From an uncultured Oscillospiraceae bacterium (GTDB lineage: Bacteria > Bacillota > Clostridia > Oscillospirales > Ruminococcaceae), in assembly GCA_934457235.1 (NCBI GenBank), contig CAKSHT010000055.1, positions 1 to 14,020 on the forward strand: DNA of 14,020 nt. Direction: 5' to 3'. The notes below the pieces were generated by a model, which saw nothing but the letters and a program-made list of their open reading frames with translations, was not told where the DNA came from and did no database searches. Position 1 is the first letter of the stretch, and every line of letters begins with the position of its first letter. This document shows, in pieces, positions 2,961 through 11,840 of the stretch. The translations under genes and the position numbers were made by a program.

Positions 2961-3941
2961 TTATGCCGCCGCCAGCTCAGCCGCCTCAGTGCCGCGTATC
3001 GCCCTGACCGTATATCCCGCCTGCTCAAGCTGGGATATCACGGACGGCTCAGCGTAATAATGCATCGTCCCGACGAACACGAATCCAAGCTCGCCTTTTT
3101 GAAGGGCGTCGATGATGAAATCCACCATCAGCTTCTGGCGGTCGGTGTACATCATGTCATAATAGGTCTGCCAGGATTCCTGGTCACTCACCTGCGACGG
3201 GTCATAGACCTCAAGTTCGCTGAAATACCCGTCGTCAAAGCTGCTCCACGCTTCGTAAAGCTCCGTGGACTCCTGCGCCTGGCGCTTTATGCTCTCGTCG
3301 CTCGTGCACTGTTCCAGGGTTTCAAGCTGTACGCTCATCGGGATACTTCCCATCATCTTGTACTGCGCTTCCCCGCCCTCTATCTCACGGATCTTCATGC
3401 CCTCCTTATGGGCAAGCTCCAGCAGGACGTTCTCCGTGCCGTACTCGGTATCAAGTCCAGCCTGATCCATGACCAGCGGACTTGCCGCCGACGCCCACAT
3501 GAACGGGCACAGGCTCTCCATGCCGTCCTGCCAGATCCCGCGGCTGCGGAAATACGCGGCTATGCTGTCATAGTCCGCGCCGATAACGTCCCTGGCGGTC
3601 ACGCCGTCCAGCAGCAGGTACTTCACGCACTTCTGCCGGAGGATAAAGTCATTGCTGAACGCCACTGTATCCATCTCCGGCGCAACCCAGCTGCTGTTGC
3701 GCATTGCGTCGAGGATATAGTCTGGGTACTGAGCGTCCTTTACTCCCGCGTGCATGCTGCCGAGCAGAAATATCTGCGCTCCGGTGTCCGCGTCCTCCAC
3801 CACCCAGAACGGCGGAGTTACGCAGTTCTGTCCCGCCTGGGGCGTGTAATCCACCTCCAGCGGCTGGTTCTTCGTGCCGGAGCAGCCGGTAATTACAAGC
3901 GACAGCAGCACGGCAGCAGCGGTCTTCAGCAGCTTCTTCAT
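2961..3941 (-). CDS. TraB/GumN family lipoprotein
   Basis: The 326-residue product begins with a lipoprotein signal peptide (residues 1-19, lipobox VITGC, C20) and is anchored outside the membrane. The mature part fits the TraB/GumN family, which is related to the Tiki and PrgY metalloprotease-like fold. The first conserved block is IFLLGSMHAG (57-66) with H64. It is followed by the APEMD acidic block near 87-91. The second histidine block is FVFVGTMHYYAE near 288-298, then QLEQAGYTVRAI at the end. The conserved GxxH and GxMH histidines are proposed metal ligands in the family. The start at 3941 was chosen because the ATG overlaps the stop of the upstream gene (ATGA), giving translational coupling, and because the signal peptide begins there. 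The substrate is unknown. Confidence 0.85.
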   Translation of the reverse strand: MKKLLKTAAAVLLSLVITGCSGTKNQPLEVDYTPQAGQNCVTPPFWVVEDADTGAQIFLLGSMHAGVKDAQYPDYILDAMRNSSWVAPEMDTVAFSNDFILRQKCVKYLLLDGVTARDVIGADYDSIAAYFRSRGIWQDGMESLCPFMWASAASPLVMDQAGLDTEYGTENVLLELAHKEGMKIREIEGGEAQYKMMGSIPMSVQLETLEQCTSDESIKRQAQESTELYEAWSSFDDGYFSELEVYDPSQVSDQESWQTYYDMMYTDRQKLMVDFIIDALQKGELGFVFVGTMHYYAEPSVISQLEQAGYTVRAIRGTEAAELAAA

Positions 3942-4162
3942 TCCGCGAGCCTGCCCAGGCAGTCGGCACAGGCGGAGCCTTCGTCGTCGTACTCTGAAAG
4001 CTCCAGGCGGTCGCCGTCCTCGCTGTAATACACCAGCCATCTTCCGCCCTCGTTTATCAGGCAGATACGCTGATCGTCGTCTTCGCCGGTACCGCAGATG
4101 TTGTAATAATAATGCGGGATATCAAGCTCAAATAGCTTTGTCTGTAATTCCTGTACTGTCAT
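3938..4162 (-). CDS. small acidic protein of unknown function
   Basis: The 74-residue acidic protein lies between the phosphatase and the TraB-like gene and overlaps the latter by 4 bases. It has no signal peptide or membrane helix. A C-terminal pattern, RWLVYYSEDGDRLELSEYDDEGSA, loosely resembles small immunity-type proteins of the Imm59 kind, but no toxin gene is adjacent, so this is only a weak resemblance. Two cysteines in SACADCLG could form a pair. The start at ATG 4162 is preferred because AAGGG lies upstream; a GTG at 4186 is possible and would add 8 residues, but has no clear site. I do not recognise the family firmly. Confidence 0.65.
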   Translation of the reverse strand: MTVQELQTKLFELDIPHYYYNICGTGEDDDQRICLINEGGRWLVYYSEDGDRLELSEYDDEGSACADCLGRLAE

Positions 4163-4191
4163 TTCTTTCCCTTTCACTGTGATCACGTAAA

Positions 4192-4800
4192 TTAAAAAAG
4201 TCTGCCGCTGATCTCGAATACCGGTCCCTTTTCCCAGAGGAACGTGGACAGGATTATCTCATATCCGCCGCCGGGAGGGAGCATGAAATCCGCGGGCTTT
4301 CCCTTGGGCAGACCAAAGCCCGCCAGCAGATTAGTTATAACTCCACCATGGGTTATCACCGCCGCACGGGTCAGCCCCTTTTTCATCATGTCGCTGAAAA
4401 TTATGTCCAGACCGCTTATGCAACGCAGGGAGAAATCACCGAACTTCTCGCCGCCGGGGGGACATGCCTCCGGACCGCCTTTCAGCCACTCGGTGTATTC
4501 CGGGAGGTTCGCGATGTCCTTCTGGCGCTTTCCCTCAAACTCACCGAAATCCATCTCCGCGATCTCGTCTACCTTTGTGAGCTGTATCTCCGGGTAGATT
4601 ATATCCGCCGTTTCAGTGCAGCGCTTAAGCGGGGAGGAATACACGCGCTCAACGCCAGGATAAACTCCGGTCGCCGCAAGTCTGCGTATCTCCTTTTCGC
4701 CGTCCGGGCAGAGGGCAAGGTCGGTCTGTCCGATGTATTTTCCGTCCAGATTTCCCTGTGTAAGTCCATGACGGATAAGATACAAATAGTAATTCTTCAT
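4192..4800 (-). CDS. histidine phosphatase family protein (phosphoglycerate-mutase-like)
   Basis: This 202-residue cytoplasmic phosphatase uses a phospho-histidine intermediate. The catalytic core is seen as IRHGLTQGN (residues 9-17; R10 and nucleophile H11), R60 in YSSPLKRCTETA, the acid E82 in EIAEMDFGEFEG, and the second histidine H151 in VITHGG. The DFGEFEG block is shared with alpha-ribazole phosphatase (CobC) and with generic phosphoglycerate-mutase-like phosphatases. No cobalamin genes are nearby, so the substrate stays open. It is the first gene of the minus-strand operon. The ATG at 4800 has GAAAGG about 10 bases upstream. Family membership is sure, substrate is not. Confidence 0.9.
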   Translation of the reverse strand: MKNYYLYLIRHGLTQGNLDGKYIGQTDLALCPDGEKEIRRLAATGVYPGVERVYSSPLKRCTETADIIYPEIQLTKVDEIAEMDFGEFEGKRQKDIANLPEYTEWLKGGPEACPPGGEKFGDFSLRCISGLDIIFSDMMKKGLTRAAVITHGGVITNLLAGFGLPKGKPADFMLPPGGGYEIILSTFLWEKGPVFEISGRLF

Positions 4801-5026
4801 CTTTGATATACCTTTCGTAATATTTTGTCGGCGTTACGCCGTTCCTGTCATGTTTCGCCGGAGAGCATGGAATAAGGCTCCGGGCGCATTGTGATACTTT
4901 TTGTAGAATTGTGTCGGATTATACATTGCGTTTACCTTTTCTGCCGCCGTTATATACAGAACGTTATCACAACATCTTGCGTACGCGCGTCAGATCCGGT
5001 CGAAATCCGGCTAAGACCGCATGAAT

Positions 5027-5056
5027 ATTATAGATTATGCCCTATGTGGGTGTCGT
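5027..5056 (-). promoter_or_regulatory. possible promoter of the phosphatase operon
   Basis: On the minus strand ACGACA (5056-5051), an 18-bp spacer and TATAAT (5032-5027) would give a leader of about 220 bases. A second TATAAT at 4923-4918 has no good -35. The 368-base gap between the divergent genes (4801-5168) otherwise holds only an imperfect hairpin at about 4857-4887 and no convincing gene. Confidence 0.35.
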
Positions 5057-5062
5057 TTTTTT

Positions 5063-5105
5063 GTGTAATATGACACTTTACAAATCGGAATATTCAGTTT
5101 ATAAT
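5063..5105 (+). promoter_or_regulatory. promoter of the XRE regulator, with possible operator
   Basis: TTTACA (5077-5082), a 17-bp spacer and perfect TATAAT (5100-5105) lie about 65 bases before the gene. Directly upstream is a short dyad, GTGTAATATGACAC (5063-5076), placed between the two divergent promoters. That is a typical place for an operator, though the dyad is only 4 bp per arm. The promoter is well supported, the operator is weak. Confidence 0.7.
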
Positions 5106-5168
5106 ATACAATATGGTATTATACACAAAAACAAAACCATGGGGAAAATAACAACAAGGAGAAAATGT

Positions 5169-5837
5169 ATGAACAAAGACTTCCCCCGTATCATGACGCT
5201 TCTGCGTAAGGAACGGGGTCTTAGCCAGAAGCAGGCGGCGGCTGACCTTGACGTCACACAGGCGCTGCTTTCACACTATGAGAACGGCAAGCGCGAATGC
5301 GGTCTTGATTTTCTTGTGCGCGTTGCGGACTACTACAATGTTTCTATAGATTACCTGCTGGGTCGCTCGCCGATGAGCACCGGCGCTTCAGTCACGGAGC
5401 AGGAGCTTCCGGAAAGCTCCTCAGTTGAGAAGTACGAGGGCGCGCCCTCCGGGCTGTCCGTGTTCTTCCAGAAGAAGCTTCTGACGAACTCCATCGAGAT
5501 AATTTTCACGCTGCTCATCAAGGCGAAGAATTCCGAGCTGTCAAAGGCTGTGTATTCCTACCTGTCGATGGCGGTGTACCGCTGCTACAGAATGATCTAC
5601 AGCGCCGGGAAGTCCAACGACGAGCATGTGTTCAGCATTCCGGAAGAGAAAGTGTCCGGGCTGACGTCCGCGGCGCTCTCCATCGAGGATATCCGCGCGC
5701 GCTCCGCTGCCGAGAACGGCGGCTCCGAGGACGAGAAGATAACCACGGCACGCATCGAGCAGGAATACTCCAAGCAGGCTGCGGCGCTTCTCTCGGTCGT
5801 GAACAACTCCGAAAAGACGCTCAGCAAATTGCAGTGA
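5169..5837 (+). CDS. XRE-family transcriptional regulator
   Basis: This 222-residue protein has an N-terminal Cro/C1-type helix-turn-helix at residues 5-62. It reads LLRKERGLSQKQAAADLDV, then the recognition helix TQALLSHYENGKR and the closing VADYYNVSIDYLLGR. The C-terminal 150 residues are mostly helical and charged with no recognised domain, possibly for ligand sensing or oligomerisation. The start at 5169 is set by AAGGAG at 5156-5161, 7 bases upstream; the open frame extends upstream to 5037 but this has no site and covers the promoter. It is divergent from the phosphatase operon, so it may control that operon, itself, or distant genes. It ends in a strong terminator. Confidence 0.88.
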   Translation: MNKDFPRIMTLLRKERGLSQKQAAADLDVTQALLSHYENGKRECGLDFLVRVADYYNVSIDYLLGRSPMSTGASVTEQELPESSSVEKYEGAPSGLSVFFQKKLLTNSIEIIFTLLIKAKNSELSKAVYSYLSMAVYRCYRMIYSAGKSNDEHVFSIPEEKVSGLTSAALSIEDIRARSAAENGGSEDEKITTARIEQEYSKQAAALLSVVNNSEKTLSKLQ

Positions 5838-5846
5838 ATCATATAC

Positions 5847-5875
5847 AAGGCACCCGGTTACCGGGTGCCTTTTTT
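5847..5875 (+). terminator. terminator of the XRE regulator
   Basis: An 11-bp perfect stem, AAGGCACCCGG and CCGGGTGCCTT, with loop TTA is followed by a T run to 5875. It lies 9 bases after the stop. On the opposite strand the T run is poor, yet it is the only clear hairpin past the end of the flippase operon. Confidence 0.9.
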
Positions 5876-5919
5876 GCAGTCCCGAAGCTTTATAGCCATG
5901 CACCCGGAGTTCCGTTTTT

Positions 5920-7356
5920 TTAATCGCCGGAACTGTCGGGCTTAGCGCCGCCCTTCTTGCGGTTTATGAACAGCTTTACCGCCTGCACCGCCGACTTGAA
6001 GTTTATCGCGACGATGATAAGGAACACCACGGCGTTCAGCACATTCAGCAGCAGTCCCTCCTGCATTGTCATGACGAACACCGACATGACCGCAAGAAGC
6101 CCCAGGTTAAGGAACATCATCGGGAAATTCACGCTCATGTACAGGTACTTCCTGGTGTCGATAACGCGGAAAATGTACACCAGCACATAGCTTATCAGCG
6201 TAGCAAGCGCCGCGCCGAGAACTCCCATCGGGGAGTTGAGCAATATCAGATTCAGAAGCACGTTGCTTCCAGCGCCGATAACGCTGGAGATGAACGAGTG
6301 CGTTGTCTTGTTACAGGCCTCGTATATCGAGCTTAAGAAGTTATTGAAGCTCTGGAAAACCACCGCCGCCACCAGGAACGGTACATAGATATAAGCCCCG
6401 GCGAACTCCCTGCTTCCGAAGAACGGCATGATTATCGGCCGCAGCACCAGCAGTATGCCGGAAGCGGTGATGAACATGACCGTTTCTATCATGCTGAACA
6501 CGTTGGAATAGAACTGGCTTATCTTGCGGGAATTGCGCTCCGTGATGGCGGACATATGCCACGCCTGGGAGAATATCCCGACGACGATAGCCGCGAGGTT
6601 CGGGAACTTGAACGCGAACGAATACACGCCGTTCGCGGCGCTTCCGAAGAACGCAGTAACCATGAACGTATCCGATACGTTGATTATCCACCACATGACA
6701 GTGGTAGGCATCAGCGGGATACTGTAGCGTATCATTGACTTCGCAAGAACCGGGTCGTTTCCGAGAGGACGGTACTGCTTGTACAGCTTCGCCTTTATCG
6801 TCAGAAATACGATGGAAATGAGGTCCGCCAGCGACACAGACAGGATATACCCAACAACGCCGAGCTTGAAAACTCCGAGCAGCAGCAGGTTCAGAATTAT
6901 AACGGATATCGTGGTGAGGATACCGTCCACCGCAAACAGCTTGACATGCCCCCGCGCCCGGACGTATATCGCGCAGATACCCTTGACGCTTCCCGTGGCG
7001 ACGTACATGTATATCAGCCACTTGTACTGCGCCAGCATGTCGATGAATCCGATAAGCGGAACCGCCGCTGCGAACAGCACAAGTCCGATTATCGCGGTGT
7101 TCAGCCCTATCGAAAGGACATGCTTGCCATTGTTCGCCTTATCAAGCGCATAGCGAAGCACACCCTCGTTTATAGAGAGCGTTACCACAGATATCAGCAG
7201 CGACGAAGCGTTGATGATGTTGTTCACGTCACCGAACCCGTCCGCGCCAAGCATGCTTGTGTAGAATCTGAGCATGAAGTACACAAGTATCTTGGAACCG
7301 AACTGCCCGATCGCCAGAATTATGGTATTGCTTGCCAGCGTCTGGTATTTGTTCAT
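5920..7356 (-). CDS. oligosaccharide flippase family protein (Wzx/MATE-like)
   Basis: A 478-residue integral membrane protein with about 12-14 hydrophobic segments across its whole length. The N-terminus (TIILAIGQFGSKILVYFMLRFYTSMLG, residues 11-37) and the central block YSIPLMPTTVMWWIINVSDTFMVTAFFG (211-238) are typical of the polysaccharide biosynthesis and export family. These proteins flip lipid-linked glycans across the cytoplasmic membrane. No glycosyltransferases are nearby, so the substrate is unknown. The tail is basic and cytoplasmic (NRKKGGAKPDSSGD). It is the last gene of the rlmB operon, about 30 bases after tadA. The ribosome binding site is weak (GAAAG), suggesting modest translation. 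Confidence 0.9.
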   Translation of the reverse strand: MNKYQTLASNTIILAIGQFGSKILVYFMLRFYTSMLGADGFGDVNNIINASSLLISVVTLSINEGVLRYALDKANNGKHVLSIGLNTAIIGLVLFAAAVPLIGFIDMLAQYKWLIYMYVATGSVKGICAIYVRARGHVKLFAVDGILTTISVIILNLLLLGVFKLGVVGYILSVSLADLISIVFLTIKAKLYKQYRPLGNDPVLAKSMIRYSIPLMPTTVMWWIINVSDTFMVTAFFGSAANGVYSFAFKFPNLAAIVVGIFSQAWHMSAITERNSRKISQFYSNVFSMIETVMFITASGILLVLRPIIMPFFGSREFAGAYIYVPFLVAAVVFQSFNNFLSSIYEACNKTTHSFISSVIGAGSNVLLNLILLNSPMGVLGAALATLISYVLVYIFRVIDTRKYLYMSVNFPMMFLNLGLLAVMSVFVMTMQEGLLLNVLNAVVFLIIVAINFKSAVQAVKLFINRKKGGAKPDSSGD

Positions 7357-7386: not shown

Positions 7387-7848
7387 TCAGACGTCCCTGT
7401 CCCGAAGCTCCCTGAAAAATCTTGTCAGTATGTCGCCGCACTCCTGCATGAGTATGCGGCTGCGCACGAACGGAATGTGCGTAAACCGCTCCTCGAACAG
7501 ATTTACGACGGAGCTGCATGCGCCGTTCTTGTCATCGAACGCGCCGTAAACGACGCGCTTCAGCCGGGAATTCATGATAGCCCCGGCGCACATCGGGCAC
7601 GGCTCCAGCGTGACGTACAGCGTACACCCGGAGAGCCGCCAGCTCCCCAGAGTCTTTGCCGCCTGCTCGATCGCGAGAATTTCAGCATGCGCGGTCGGGG
7701 ACTGGAGCTGCTCGCGCAGGTTCCAGCCCTCGCCGATTATTTCACCCTCCGGTGAAACGACTATCGCCCCTACCGGTATCTCGCCCAACACATAGGCGCG
7801 TTCAGCAAGCGCCAGCGCCTTTGTCATATATTCCTCGTCCAGGGTCAT
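7387..7848 (-). CDS. tadA: tRNA-specific adenosine deaminase TadA
   Basis: TadA converts adenosine 34 to inosine in the anticodon of tRNA-Arg(ACG). The 153-residue protein has the zinc-binding cytidine-deaminase signature. H54-A-E56 provides the histidine ligand and the catalytic glutamate, and PCPMC provides C84 and C87. The GEIPVGA segment (22-28) and substrate-site N43 in GWN are also conserved. The length is normal for TadA. The start at 7848 was chosen because the ATG overlaps the stop of the upstream gene (ATGA) and because the reading starts with the usual short TLDEEYMTKAL helix. The 4-base overlap implies translational coupling to the large membrane protein. Confidence 0.95.
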   Translation of the reverse strand: MTLDEEYMTKALALAERAYVLGEIPVGAIVVSPEGEIIGEGWNLREQLQSPTAHAEILAIEQAAKTLGSWRLSGCTLYVTLEPCPMCAGAIMNSRLKRVVYGAFDDKNGACSSVVNLFEERFTHIPFVRSRILMQECGDILTRFFRELRDRDV

Positions 7849-10800
7849 ATGCGCTTGAAACTCATGACAAGCGCGGTCAGCACGAGCCACGCAGCGTTAT
7901 ATGCGGCTATCCAGAAGCCGTCGAACGGAGTGAAATTCTTGAATGCCGCGAAGATGAACGCCAGGAGTACGCCAAGCGCTACGCCGGCTATCTCCATTAT
8001 GCAGCCCATTCTTATACGCTCCCTGAGAGCCTTCGCGCAGTTGATGGAGGAAGCGAGCGATGAGAAAGTACCGTCGCAGGATACCGCGGCGCTGCCCTTT
8101 CCGGCGTATTTCGTGTGCTCGTCGAACAGGTCGTGGATTTCCGCCGGGAGTATCCGCACGTCGTCAGCATAGATATCGAAAAGCTCGGACACAACGCCCT
8201 CGCTGAGTATGCCGTCAACAGTCTTGATAACAAGGCTCACGCCGTTTCTGGAGAGCTTGTGCACCTGCTCGCGCACCTGCGGATTTGCAGACAGCGTAAC
8301 GAAGAAAAGCATGCACACCTCGCCGGCTACCGCCAGGTAAACCACCTCGTCGTGGTTCTTGTTGAGGGCGCTCTCTTTCTTTGCGTCCGGGACTACTATC
8401 CCGTGGGACTTCATGTGATCCCTGCTGCCGAGGAGTATCCTGCGGCTGCCGACCCAGCCGGAAACGCCAAGTCCGCTCTCGTATACGCAGTTGGACACCT
8501 TTTTCAGCAGCGCGGGCTTGTAGTTGAGCATGTTGAACAGCGGATCCGCCAGGATACTGTCGGAGCTTACCGCAAGGCTCGCGGCGTAGATTATAGCCTC
8601 GTCGATGGTGACGTGCTGCGCGCCATTAGCACCGTTCTTGTTGTAATCCCAGATATTGCGGATAGAAACAGAGCCTGCGGGGAACAGCGTCTTTGCCTCC
8701 ACCAGCACGGAATTCACCGCGCTGAAATCCTCTACGGCGCTGTAGCCCAGAATAGCCGCCCGGCGCTGTCCGTTCTTCCTGGAGGCGCTGAGCATAGGGA
8801 GCATAACGACGAGCGCCCCGGTGAATGTCGCGCCGATACACAGAACGGCGGAGAACACAGTCGCCGCAAACGACCACTGATTCATTATGCTTCCGGAATT
8901 GCCGGCGCTGGTGCTGAAAAATCCTATCGCTCCGCCGACAACGGAAAGTCCGAGGATTATCGGAGTCATGACTCTTGAAATACGGTCCGAGATATCCTCG
9001 CAGTAGGTGGAAATTATGAAATCGCACAGCATCTCGGTCTTGCGCATGGAAGCGACTACCGGGAATCCGCGCACTGCGCCGCGGGAGAGCTGTTCAGCGT
9101 CCTCGCCGTCGGTGCACTCGACGAAATATTTCTCCATATCCCCGGAGATGAACCGGAAATTGTTCTTCGCCGCCCGCACGGTGCACAGCTTTGACACCGT
9201 ATTGAAACACAGCGCCAGCATGGATACCATCAGATACACGAACGACTGCTTCATCATCAGATAATTCGGCTCGGCAAGATATACTATTATGCTTGCAAGC
9301 GCGCCGATATGCGCGAATCCGCACAGCGTGTCGCCGTCCGGCTTCTTTTTCAGCAGGCGCGTAAATCCGTTGGTGATTACACTGGAGCACGCCGCGAAGC
9401 TCAGAATGCCTATCGTCAGCTCGGTGTACAGGAACACCTCGAAATTCGTGGAGAGCTGAGAGAGTATCGGCACTCCGTTTATCTTGAACGTGAAGAACGC
9501 CGTTGCGATTATCGCCGCAGCGGTCAGCAGACCGAGTATCACCAGACGTCCCGTCAGACCCTTTCCGGCGCGCTCAAGGCGCTCGGTTATTACGTTCTCG
9601 TCGTCCAGGTCGATTACCTCGTCCTCGTCCTCCTCGTCATCCTCTTCCTCGTCCTGCTCCTCCTGCTCGTCGTCGATATCCTCAAGCATGAAGCTTGAGA
9701 TACGGCGCTTCTTACGGGCTGCGAGGGCTTCCGCCTCCCGCACCGCAGCGACCGGGTCGGTCTTGGGAAGAATGCTGGTGTCTATCACCTTGTTATCGTA
9801 ATCAATATTGAGCGCGCGGGGCGGCAGCGTCTTGTCGGAGAGATCCGTCAGAGTTACGGTGCGCTCCTCCGCAAGGTTCTTTTCACGCTGCTCTTTCAGC
9901 TTCTCGTTGAGGGAAGCTATCAGCGCGTCGCTGCTACGGCGCTCCTTTTCGGAAACGTCCTGCTTTTTCTGGGCGCCCGGAGTGAACAGGATATCGTCGG
10001 CGCTGGAGTGCGGCTTCTTGCGCGATGTCACGGGAGAATACTCCTTGACGCGCTCCGCTTCCCCGCCGGACATCTTCTTCAGATCGTTGCCGGACACAGC
10101 CAGCGTGTCGCCTATCTCCTGCGGCACAGAGCCGCTCTTCAGCTCGTCCACCGCCTTTTCACGGGATTCCATCGGGTTGAGGGAGTCCACAAGGTCGTCC
10201 GGCTCCTCGGCGGCGCGGTCGGCTGCCAGGAGCGCCTTGTTTATCTCCTCAATACGCTTCAGCTTGCGGAGCTTCTGGGTTTCCGTCGTCACAAGGTCGC
10301 TGCGGGTATGGAACACGATATCGTCATCAGCTCCCGACACCGCCGGCTTCACGAACGGCTGCACATGCTCGCTCTGCGGCTGCACGTACTCCTTTACGTC
10401 CTCCTCCGGCTCTGCGAACAGCTTCGCAGCTTCCATCGGCGACGAAAGCTCTGCGGTGTATCCGGAGTGCTCCGGCTCCTGCGGCTCCTCGCTCTTCACC
10501 GAGAACTGCATGGTTTTCTCTTCCTCGGCTCGGCGCGCTTCAAGTCTGCGCTGCTCCTCGCGCTCCTGCTCAAGGCGCTTTTCCTCAAGCTCGCGCTGCT
10601 TTTTCTGCTCCGCTTCAAAGCGCTTCTGCTCTGCACGCTCGGCGCGCTCGGCTTCTCGGCGCTCCTTTTCCTCGCGGGCGGCGCGGCGCTTCTCATCGTC
10701 CTCGGACTTTTTCCTGAGCTGCTCCGCACGGCGCTTTTCGTTCGCTTCCGCTGCGCGTCGGATATTCTCCGCGCGTTCGTGGGCGGCTTCCTCCTCAGTC

Positions 10801-10988
10801 TGCTCCAGCTCCTCACGCTCGCTTTCGGACATGCGTGTGCGCGCGCCGCTGCTGCGCATCAGCTGGTCAAGCTCACTGCCGCCGATTATCTCGGTGACGC
10901 TCTCCGTATGCTGTTCGCCGTGCCCGGAGGAACTGCGCTTTTTGTCTATTTCCGCAAGAATATCGTCAATGCTGTACTTATCAGACAT
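7845..10988 (-). CDS. large membrane protein with degenerate P-type ATPase domain
   Basis: This 1047-residue protein is not a family I recognise by name. Residues 56-158 are a long E/R/K/A-rich segment predicted to be a coiled coil or single alpha helix. Residues 160-435 are polar and disordered-looking. Residues 436-466 are almost all Asp/Glu. Then come hydrophobic helices near 480-500, 515-540, 558-575 and 580-600, a soluble loop at 601-672, helices at 673-693 and 706-732, a soluble domain at 735-990, and helices at 995-1015 and 1023-1043. This is the layout of a P1B ATPase. The catalytic motifs are lost: the DKTGT site aligns with EAKTLFP (764-770), TGD with TVD (923-925), and GDGxND with SCDGTFS (970-976). 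GLGVSGWVGSRRILLGS matches an N-domain. The N-terminus has SIDDILAEID. The start at ATG 10988 follows GAGGAG; an adjacent TTG is less likely. Confidence 0.85.
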   Translation of the reverse strand: MSDKYSIDDILAEIDKKRSSSGHGEQHTESVTEIIGGSELDQLMRSSGARTRMSESEREELEQTEEEAAHERAENIRRAAEANEKRRAEQLRKKSEDDEKRRAAREEKERREAERAERAEQKRFEAEQKKQRELEEKRLEQEREEQRRLEARRAEEEKTMQFSVKSEEPQEPEHSGYTAELSSPMEAAKLFAEPEEDVKEYVQPQSEHVQPFVKPAVSGADDDIVFHTRSDLVTTETQKLRKLKRIEEINKALLAADRAAEEPDDLVDSLNPMESREKAVDELKSGSVPQEIGDTLAVSGNDLKKMSGGEAERVKEYSPVTSRKKPHSSADDILFTPGAQKKQDVSEKERRSSDALIASLNEKLKEQREKNLAEERTVTLTDLSDKTLPPRALNIDYDNKVIDTSILPKTDPVAAVREAEALAARKKRRISSFMLEDIDDEQEEQDEEEDDEEDEDEVIDLDDENVITERLERAGKGLTGRLVILGLLTAAAIIATAFFTFKINGVPILSQLSTNFEVFLYTELTIGILSFAACSSVITNGFTRLLKKKPDGDTLCGFAHIGALASIIVYLAEPNYLMMKQSFVYLMVSMLALCFNTVSKLCTVRAAKNNFRFISGDMEKYFVECTDGEDAEQLSRGAVRGFPVVASMRKTEMLCDFIISTYCEDISDRISRVMTPIILGLSVVGGAIGFFSTSAGNSGSIMNQWSFAATVFSAVLCIGATFTGALVVMLPMLSASRKNGQRRAAILGYSAVEDFSAVNSVLVEAKTLFPAGSVSIRNIWDYNKNGANGAQHVTIDEAIIYAASLAVSSDSILADPLFNMLNYKPALLKKVSNCVYESGLGVSGWVGSRRILLGSRDHMKSHGIVVPDAKKESALNKNHDEVVYLAVAGEVCMLFFVTLSANPQVREQVHKLSRNGVSLVIKTVDGILSEGVVSELFDIYADDVRILPAEIHDLFDEHTKYAGKGSAAVSCDGTFSSLASSINCAKALRERIRMGCIMEIAGVALGVLLAFIFAAFKNFTPFDGFWIAAYNAAWLVLTALVMSFKRI

Positions 10989-11019
10989 CAATATCTCTCC
11001 TCTAATTCTGACCGCCGGT

Positions 11020-11751
11020 TCAGCCGCGGTGCTTTACGACCTCATACATGAGTATTCCGGCTGAAACCGAGGCGTTCAGTGAATTGACCTTTCCAAACAT
11101 CGGCAGGGACAGCGTCATGTCGCAGTTCTCGCGGACGAGCCTGCCAAGCCCGAAGCCCTCGCTGCCGATCACCAGTGCCACCGCACCGGACAGATCAGCC
11201 TTATCAAAGGGAGTTCCGTCTGCCTCCATGCCATATACCCACACGCCGTTCTCTTTCAGTCGCTTGATCGTATCCACGAGGTTTGGCACCCGCGCTACCT
11301 TCAGCCACGCCGCCGCACCAGCGGAGGTCTTGAACACCGTTGCGTTGAGGGACGCGCTGCGCCTTTTCGGGATTATCAGCCCGTCGGCGCCCGCCGCCTC
11401 TGCAGTACGGATTATCGCGCCGAGGTTATGCGGATCCTCTATTTCATCTGCGATGATTATGAACGGGGGTTTGCCCTTTTCCTGCGCCGCCGCGAGGATA
11501 TCCTCCACGGTGGAATAGGATGCGGACGCGATCTCCGCTGCGGTACCGCCGTGCTTCGGAGTGCCGCACATCGCTGTCAGCCGTTCATCGCTGACCTCCT
11601 TGACAACGGCGCCATTCTTCTTCGCAAGCGCCATTATCTTACCGAGGGAGGCGCCCTTCTGGACGTAAACCGTGTCGATCTCCCTGTCGGAATTCAGCGT
11701 TTCCGTTACGGCGTTCCTGCCGTATATTAAACTGCTTTCCTGATTTTCCAT
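11020..11751 (-). CDS. rlmB: 23S rRNA (guanosine-2'-O)-methyltransferase RlmB (SpoU/TrmH family)
   Basis: The 243-residue enzyme methylates the 2'-hydroxyl of a conserved guanosine in 23S rRNA with S-adenosylmethionine. An N-terminal substrate-binding domain starts at IYGRNAVTETL (residues 9-19). The SPOUT knot motifs follow: motif 1 DPHNLGAIIRTAEA with N109 and R115, motif 2 VIGSEGFGL with E198, and motif 3 LPMFGKVNSLNASVSAGI with N223 to N226. Length is normal. The start at 11751 is supported by AAAGGAA upstream; the frame runs on for 28 residues of poor sequence that cover the promoter. It is the first gene of the operon. The paralogue TrmH-type tRNA methylase is a less likely identity. 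Confidence 0.92.
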   Translation of the reverse strand: MENQESSLIYGRNAVTETLNSDREIDTVYVQKGASLGKIMALAKKNGAVVKEVSDERLTAMCGTPKHGGTAAEIASASYSTVEDILAAAQEKGKPPFIIIADEIEDPHNLGAIIRTAEAAGADGLIIPKRRSASLNATVFKTSAGAAAWLKVARVPNLVDTIKRLKENGVWVYGMEADGTPFDKADLSGAVALVIGSEGFGLGRLVRENCDMTLSLPMFGKVNSLNASVSAGILMYEVVKHRG

Positions 11752-11811
11752 AGTAATTCCTTTATATAAATAATAGTATACAGTAAAACTGCGCATTGAT
11801 ATACAATTTAC

Positions 11812-11840
11812 ATTATACCATAAAATCTGCTTCAATGCAA
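11812..11840 (-). promoter_or_regulatory. promoter of the rlmB operon (extended -10)
   Basis: On the minus strand TATAAT (11817-11812) is preceded by TGG, forming an extended -10. A weak -35, TTGCAT (11840-11835), is 17 bp upstream. It is the only good promoter for the four-gene operon, with a leader of about 55 bases. Confidence 0.75.

Follow-up and report, generated by a model that had tools for sequence, protein, structure and literature searches.

The window analyzed here, a stretch of 14,020 nucleotides from an uncultured Oscillospiraceae bacterium (assembly GCA_934457235.1, contig CAKSHT010000055.1), carries on its minus strand a gene for a membrane protein with the predicted fold of a P1B-type ATPase and without the catalytic motifs of one. 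The initial annotation, made from the sequence alone, had described an intact gene of about 3.1 kb for a pseudo-P-type ATPase with a long charged N-terminal region. Indeed, a frame check of the window found the minus-strand open reading frame (ORF) at 7845-10991 to be uninterrupted throughout. A TTG at 10991 directly precedes the ATG at 10986-10988, and the methionine of the ATG start is Met in 50/50 rows of alignment A3; the ATG start is therefore favored, and the product of 1047 residues is the likelier one. The public names of relatives include hypothetical protein, HAD family hydrolase, Copper-transporting P-type ATPase and cation transport ATPase, the last three of which are misleading for genes of this family.

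Relatives were sought in the order to which the bacterium belongs, which we take to be named Oscillospirales, a large assemblage of gut bacteria and anaerobes; membership in it is as assigned by the genome search tool. A scan with the window protein matched 222 of 245 order genomes at E 1e-3, some of the matches possibly being real pumps. From the match list 80 further loci were picked by hand, strong and weak matches alike and not at random; together with loci L001-L006, and minus the broken gene of L056, they give a set of 85 proteins, in which L088 and L104 are cut by contig ends. Alignment A1 contains the window protein and 67 of these 85 relatives (n = 68), the 18 omitted being mostly near-duplicates. 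The break in L056 is an in-frame TGA in genome G028 (L027, L056), either an assembly error or a true loss. The match in genome G561, from a profile scan of the order genomes, likewise carries one TGA.

The core of the protein is predicted to adopt the P1B fold, with eight transmembrane (TM) helices and the actuator (A), phosphorylation (P) and nucleotide-binding (N) domains in P1B order. The NCBIfam model TIGR01525 (heavy metal P-type ATPase) matches residues 665-924 of the window protein (E 3.2e-11), with scores of 42.8 bits for the whole protein and 48.4 for the core that lie below the curated cut-off of 346.25, and is matched by 51/68 family members at E up to 1e-3. Against Pfam the window protein gave no significant match; a scan of the 68 members (E 1e-3) returned one PF00702 (general HAD hydrolase), one DUF4079 and no P-type ATPase model. 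In the predicted-fold search P-type ATPases were found, including separate N-domain entries of copper ATPases. The P1B layout read from the sequence thus holds in both the profile and the fold comparison.

The family resembles CopA-type copper ATPases (4bbj, 3rfu and 7r0g, of which we take the first two to be CopA) in its eight helices, the order of the P and N domains and the spacing from the phosphorylation site to the TGD site (median 151 residues, as against 149-152 in 17 pumps). The N-domain stretch has a median of 121 residues in both groups. In contrast to these pumps, the A domain is about half size, a feature missed by the initial annotation, and the P-domain end that follows TGD is shortened; TM7 distances in the real pumps rely on a hydropathy rule, which did not work for 8 of the 17. 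The family further differs from CopA-type pumps in the long charged tail of most members and in its lack of DKTGT, TGE, GDGxND, CPC and the histidine of the HP site.

Neither DKTGT nor GDGxND occurs in the window protein or in any of the 85 relatives. The initial annotation had asked whether orthologs keep the motifs intact, and on this count its claim was left standing. Its placing of EAKTLFP at the DKTGTLT site was correct as to position, since the alignment there has no gap, but Glu is found in only 5/68 rows, the close kin of the window protein among them. The full column reads D 26, T 13, S 9, N 6, E 5, R 5, G 2, K 1 and A 1. The family has a signature of its own at this site, ending in FP (F in 62/68 rows, P in 57/68). 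TVD does lie at the TGD site; the loss of the motif implied by the initial annotation concerns the Gly and not the Asp, which is invariant (D926, 68/68). Similarly, GDGxND is indeed absent from the segment with SCDGTFS, but the equivalence of the two is ambiguous: SCDGTFS may correspond to GDGxND or to the strand that follows, and the profile alignment to CopA skips the segment. TGE is absent from the window protein. A TGE[SPA] string occurs in three of the 85 relatives: L001 has it in the tail, L087 in TM6 and L070 close to the small A domain. The N-domain assignment of GLGVSGWVGSRRILLGS was borne out, its two glycines being kept as in CopA-type pumps (G842 in 67/68 rows, G855 in 68/68), while the HP column has His in 0/68 rows and Pro in 34/68. 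As had been noted, there is no CPC-type motif in TM6: C-x-C is found at the CPC columns in 0/68 rows, and the window protein holds no CPC-, SPC- or CPH-type string. SPCA or TPHA strings are present in L115, just before the phosphorylation site, and in L105, in the tail.

Selection on the gene was estimated by plain NG86 ratios of nonsynonymous to synonymous substitution rates (dN/dS), in which dS is mostly near or >1 and the core value for L006 is undefined. Between the window gene and L001-L004, dN/dS was 0.13-0.18 overall, 0.15-0.22 in the tail, 0.10-0.14 in the core and 0.07-0.11 in the P/N head; for L005 and L006, which are more distant, the head value was 0.13 and 0.10, respectively. The head is the most constrained region compared in 5/6 relatives, the core and head of L001 (0.103 and 0.105) being equal within rounding. 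The family as a whole shares the degeneracy of the motifs and evolves under purifying selection, in line with the earlier assertion that the gene is under selection.

With a threshold of E 1e-50, a family profile found its target in 371 of 394 order genomes, a single match in each except G575, which has two; several of the smallest genomes are among the 23 that gave none. Carriers with public names include Caproiciproducens faecalis, Caproicibacterium and Clostridium minihomine, and Caproiciproducens is placed in Acutalibacteraceae. In a class sample of 291 genomes, E <1e-100 was reached in 12, all of them from the order sample, the non-membership of the other 279 in the order being inferred. 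The next best matches had E 4e-41 and weaker and covered only positions ∼225-512. At 1e-10, 273/291 class genomes match, since a portion of the profile is also matched by real pumps. A phylum sample gave matches in 6/398 genomes, all six in the order (the membership of the other 392 was unchecked). A pattern search of viral contigs picked up 15 stretches, none of which encodes a relative. The 18 best partial class matches are real pumps, with DKTGT in 18/18 and GDGxND, TGE and CPCA in 17 each; one is a 309-residue fragment. In a quick tree of 68 family loops and these 18 pumps, the two groups are split by one branch (SH-aLRT 100), with the caveat that L118 forms a long branch meeting the pump branch. 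The L085 stretch, from inside the order, also encodes a pump with all motifs.

The N-terminal tail is modeled with less certainty. The full-length model (pLDDT 67.5, pTM 0.54) has a short helix at residues 8-20, a charged helix at 56-160 and a few shorter helices, the rest being mostly of low confidence up to residue 460. Tail length ranges from ∼0 to ∼890 residues in the 85 relatives, with a median of 301, and L087, L093, L098 and L099 (541-548 residues each) are practically tail-less; L104 also shows no tail but is truncated at a contig end. Since its length is so variable, the tail seems to be an accessory to the core, which is the conserved part. Genomes G059 and G075, which hold two of the tail-less members, are also without a Spo0A match. 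A docking motif shared at the N terminus with other proteins was considered and rejected: a degenerate DNA pattern run on 26 genomes gave 30 matches that were made into loci, the only ones read, of which 11 were the family gene and 19 were other frames, with no recurrent carrier among the latter.

Features of the pseudo-P1B ATPase gene and its immediate neighbors in the window
Feature	Residues	Position	Strand	Basis or remark
Pseudo-P1B ATPase gene		7845..10988	-	1047 residues from ATG, stop included; TTG start at 10991 also possible
Short helix motif YSIDDILAEID	6-16	10944..10976	-	Like motif in 42/85 relatives (loose regular expression)
Long charged predicted helix	56-160	10512..10826	-	Block pLDDT 71-89 for residues 61-150
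Acidic linker just before membrane core	436-463	9603..9686	-	Sequence
TM1-TM4 of P1B core	462-615	9147..9608	-	Models; CopA register match, weak by sequence alone
Reduced actuator (A) domain	616-666	8994..9146	-	Two strands and short helices, no TGE
TM5-TM6	667-742	8766..8993	-	CPC site reads A-T-F
EAKTLFP at DKTGTLT site	765-771	8679..8699	-	Gapless alignment
N-domain-like segment	∼775-900	8292..8669	-	Predicted fold and fold matches
N-domain glycine motif GLGVSGWVGSRRILLGS	840-856	8424..8474	-	G842 67/68, G855 68/68
TVD at TGD site	924-926	8214..8222	-	Alignment
SCDGTFS in shortened segment without GDGxND	971-977	8061..8081	-	
TM7-TM8 and C terminus	978-1048	7848..8060	-	Models
rlmB-like rRNA 2'-O-methyltransferase (SpoU family), directly upstream		11020..11835	-	Pfam PF00588 and PF08032
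tadA-like deaminase, directly downstream, overlapping stop		7387..7848	-	

The neighborhood was counted over 87 loci (the window, L001-L006 and the 80 fetched stretches). A same-strand rlmB lies upstream in 85/87, within 400 bp in 84, the remaining one being L056 with its broken family gene, and both loci without rlmB end at the family gene. In the window 28 bp separate rlmB from the TTG, and the median gap is 21 bp in the 70 loci with both genes called; RlmB of the window carries both SpoU-family domains. The coupling to tadA on which the initial annotation relied is present in the window and its close relatives but is not conserved: tadA and a flippase gene are found in 7/87 loci, close relatives only, and the conserved neighbor is rlmB. 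The block that follows tadA in close relatives (window 2961-7356: flippase-like, xre-type regulator, histidine phosphatase and TraB-like genes) occurs in 6 to 7/87 loci. The link to rlmB points to a possible connection with translation or with the maturation of ribosomes.

Outside the order, up to 1.5 kb downstream of rlmB was compared at 30 loci, 4 of which gave no ORF; 0/26 ORFs match the family. The next ORF after rlmB there is often what we take, by eye, to be YacP-like or SigH-like. Within the order, YacP (NYN) was found in 33/117 genomes, and in the 19 compared it lies on another contig than the family gene in 18 and ∼15 kb away in one (G042). This distribution fits a gene change at the place after rlmB and has no bearing on function. 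In 32 of the 33 genomes the YacP domain sits in an open frame of ∼830-1330 residues and not in a small gene, an apparent fusion. Elsewhere on the minus strand of the window lie a gene for a small DUF2508 protein (2662-2913) and a transposase-like gene (30-989; HTH_38 and rve integrase core), which resembles those of IS30-type elements.

P-type ATPases are defined by a phosphorylated aspartate, and their phosphoenzyme cycle needs the acceptor, Mg2+ ligands and the actuator glutamate. In members that have lost these, the window protein included, no phosphoenzyme cycle is expected. The catalytic residues are lost family-wide, the fold is retained and purifying selection acts on the gene: by these marks the family is one of pseudoenzymes, presumably inactive, and the dead-pump reading of the initial annotation is supported. 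That the head stays conserved, with two N-domain glycines and one Asp, speaks for a function in binding or conformational change that has been retained. The window gene is thus probably a member of an old pseudo-P1B ATPase family in which the phosphorylation chemistry and half the actuator domain are gone and which has been kept for another job, a scaffold or sensor being the likeliest. Such a protein would work without a phosphoenzyme cycle, the eight-helix membrane part serving as the base of an N/P head that, with two glycines and one Asp fixed, may be a ligand-responsive or protein-binding module, and the charged tail, which varies and is missing from some members, could be an accessory arm. 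Its likeliest role would be to bind a partner as a membrane scaffold or sensor, and the rlmB link makes a translation-related partner possible. A more far-reaching proposal, of which we are doubtful, is that the family is a dedicated, near-universal membrane regulator of the order, whose N/P head senses a nucleotide or protein ligand and which acts with RlmB to couple ribosome maturation to the state of the membrane or of the cell's energy.

By analogy, the nearest concept is human TMEM94/ERMA, whose pumping is disputed. In this protein DKQGI stands for DKTGT, GSSANL for GDGVND, and TGES is absent (PMC12134183, PMC13322241). One group detected neither ATPase activity nor Mg2+ binding, leaving autoinhibition in detergent possible, and measured micromolar affinity for an ATP analog (PMC12134183), whereas another group reported that ERMA drives ATP-dependent Mg2+ uptake for which its Asp is needed (PMC13322241). 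As described there, TMEM94/ERMA shares with the family the P-type fold, a changed phosphorylation motif, the lack of TGES and the replacement of GDGVND; it has ten TM helices and keeps the Asp and Lys of the DK motif, whereas the bacterial family is P1B-like, with eight helices and the Asp often lost. TMEM94/ERMA is not named among the 59 PDB sequence matches or the 50 fold matches listed, an absence that is no test of kinship.

Several points weigh against the scaffold or sensor interpretation. An Asp occupies the phosphorylation site in 26/68 rows, so that residual chemistry is possible in part of the family; the string near the small A domain of L070 reads LTGEA; the structure models are AlphaFold predictions made without templates; the adjacency of rlmB may reflect co-expression or shared transcription only; and there is the Mg2+ uptake reported for ERMA. 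A passive channel, permease or lipid-binding protein derived from the TM part, with the head as its gate, is rather unlikely: the TM part is retained, several of its residues are well conserved and Pro stands at the CPC Pro column in 49/68 rows, but the window protein has Thr there, the TM6 columns share no common metal-ligand set, and a mere pore leaves unexplained why dN/dS is lowest in the head when tail, core and P/N head are compared. It is unlikely, too, that the family consists of working, non-canonical pumps of the kind claimed for ERMA. The Asp in 26/68 rows, the invariant Asp of TGD and the reported need of ERMA for its Asp would agree with this, but 42/68 rows, 5 of them with Glu, have no Asp at the phosphorylation site, GDGxND is absent throughout, the A domain is halved, C-x-C is lacking, and the TMEM94 results of the first group, with their detergent reservation, point the other way. 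That the gene serves sporulation is very improbable, and as a sole role it is rejected: Spo0A is found in 222/245 order genomes and the gene is somewhat commoner with it (209/222), but 18/23 genomes without Spo0A still carry the gene (20 of these 23 were listed; G244, G246 and G249 were assigned by elimination). Decay of a pump gene to no function, to which the lost motifs could point, is rejected by the low dN/dS against the four close relatives, by presence in most sampled genomes of the order and by the branch apart from real pumps, and is hardly credible.

No paper on such a bacterial protein was found in the open-licence PMC literature, which is weak evidence of absence. The family joins a P1B fold to a pseudoenzyme state that is order-wide and operon-fixed; if the proposal of a regulator acting with RlmB is true, no earlier bacterial P-type pseudoenzyme of this sort is on record within the searchable open literature. 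The family would also offer a bacterial system for the TMEM94/ERMA dispute over the capacity of a P-type fold for transport once its motifs are gone. A selected family without phosphorylation chemistry, present in nearly all sampled genomes of the order, means that the P-type fold has a use beyond pumping.
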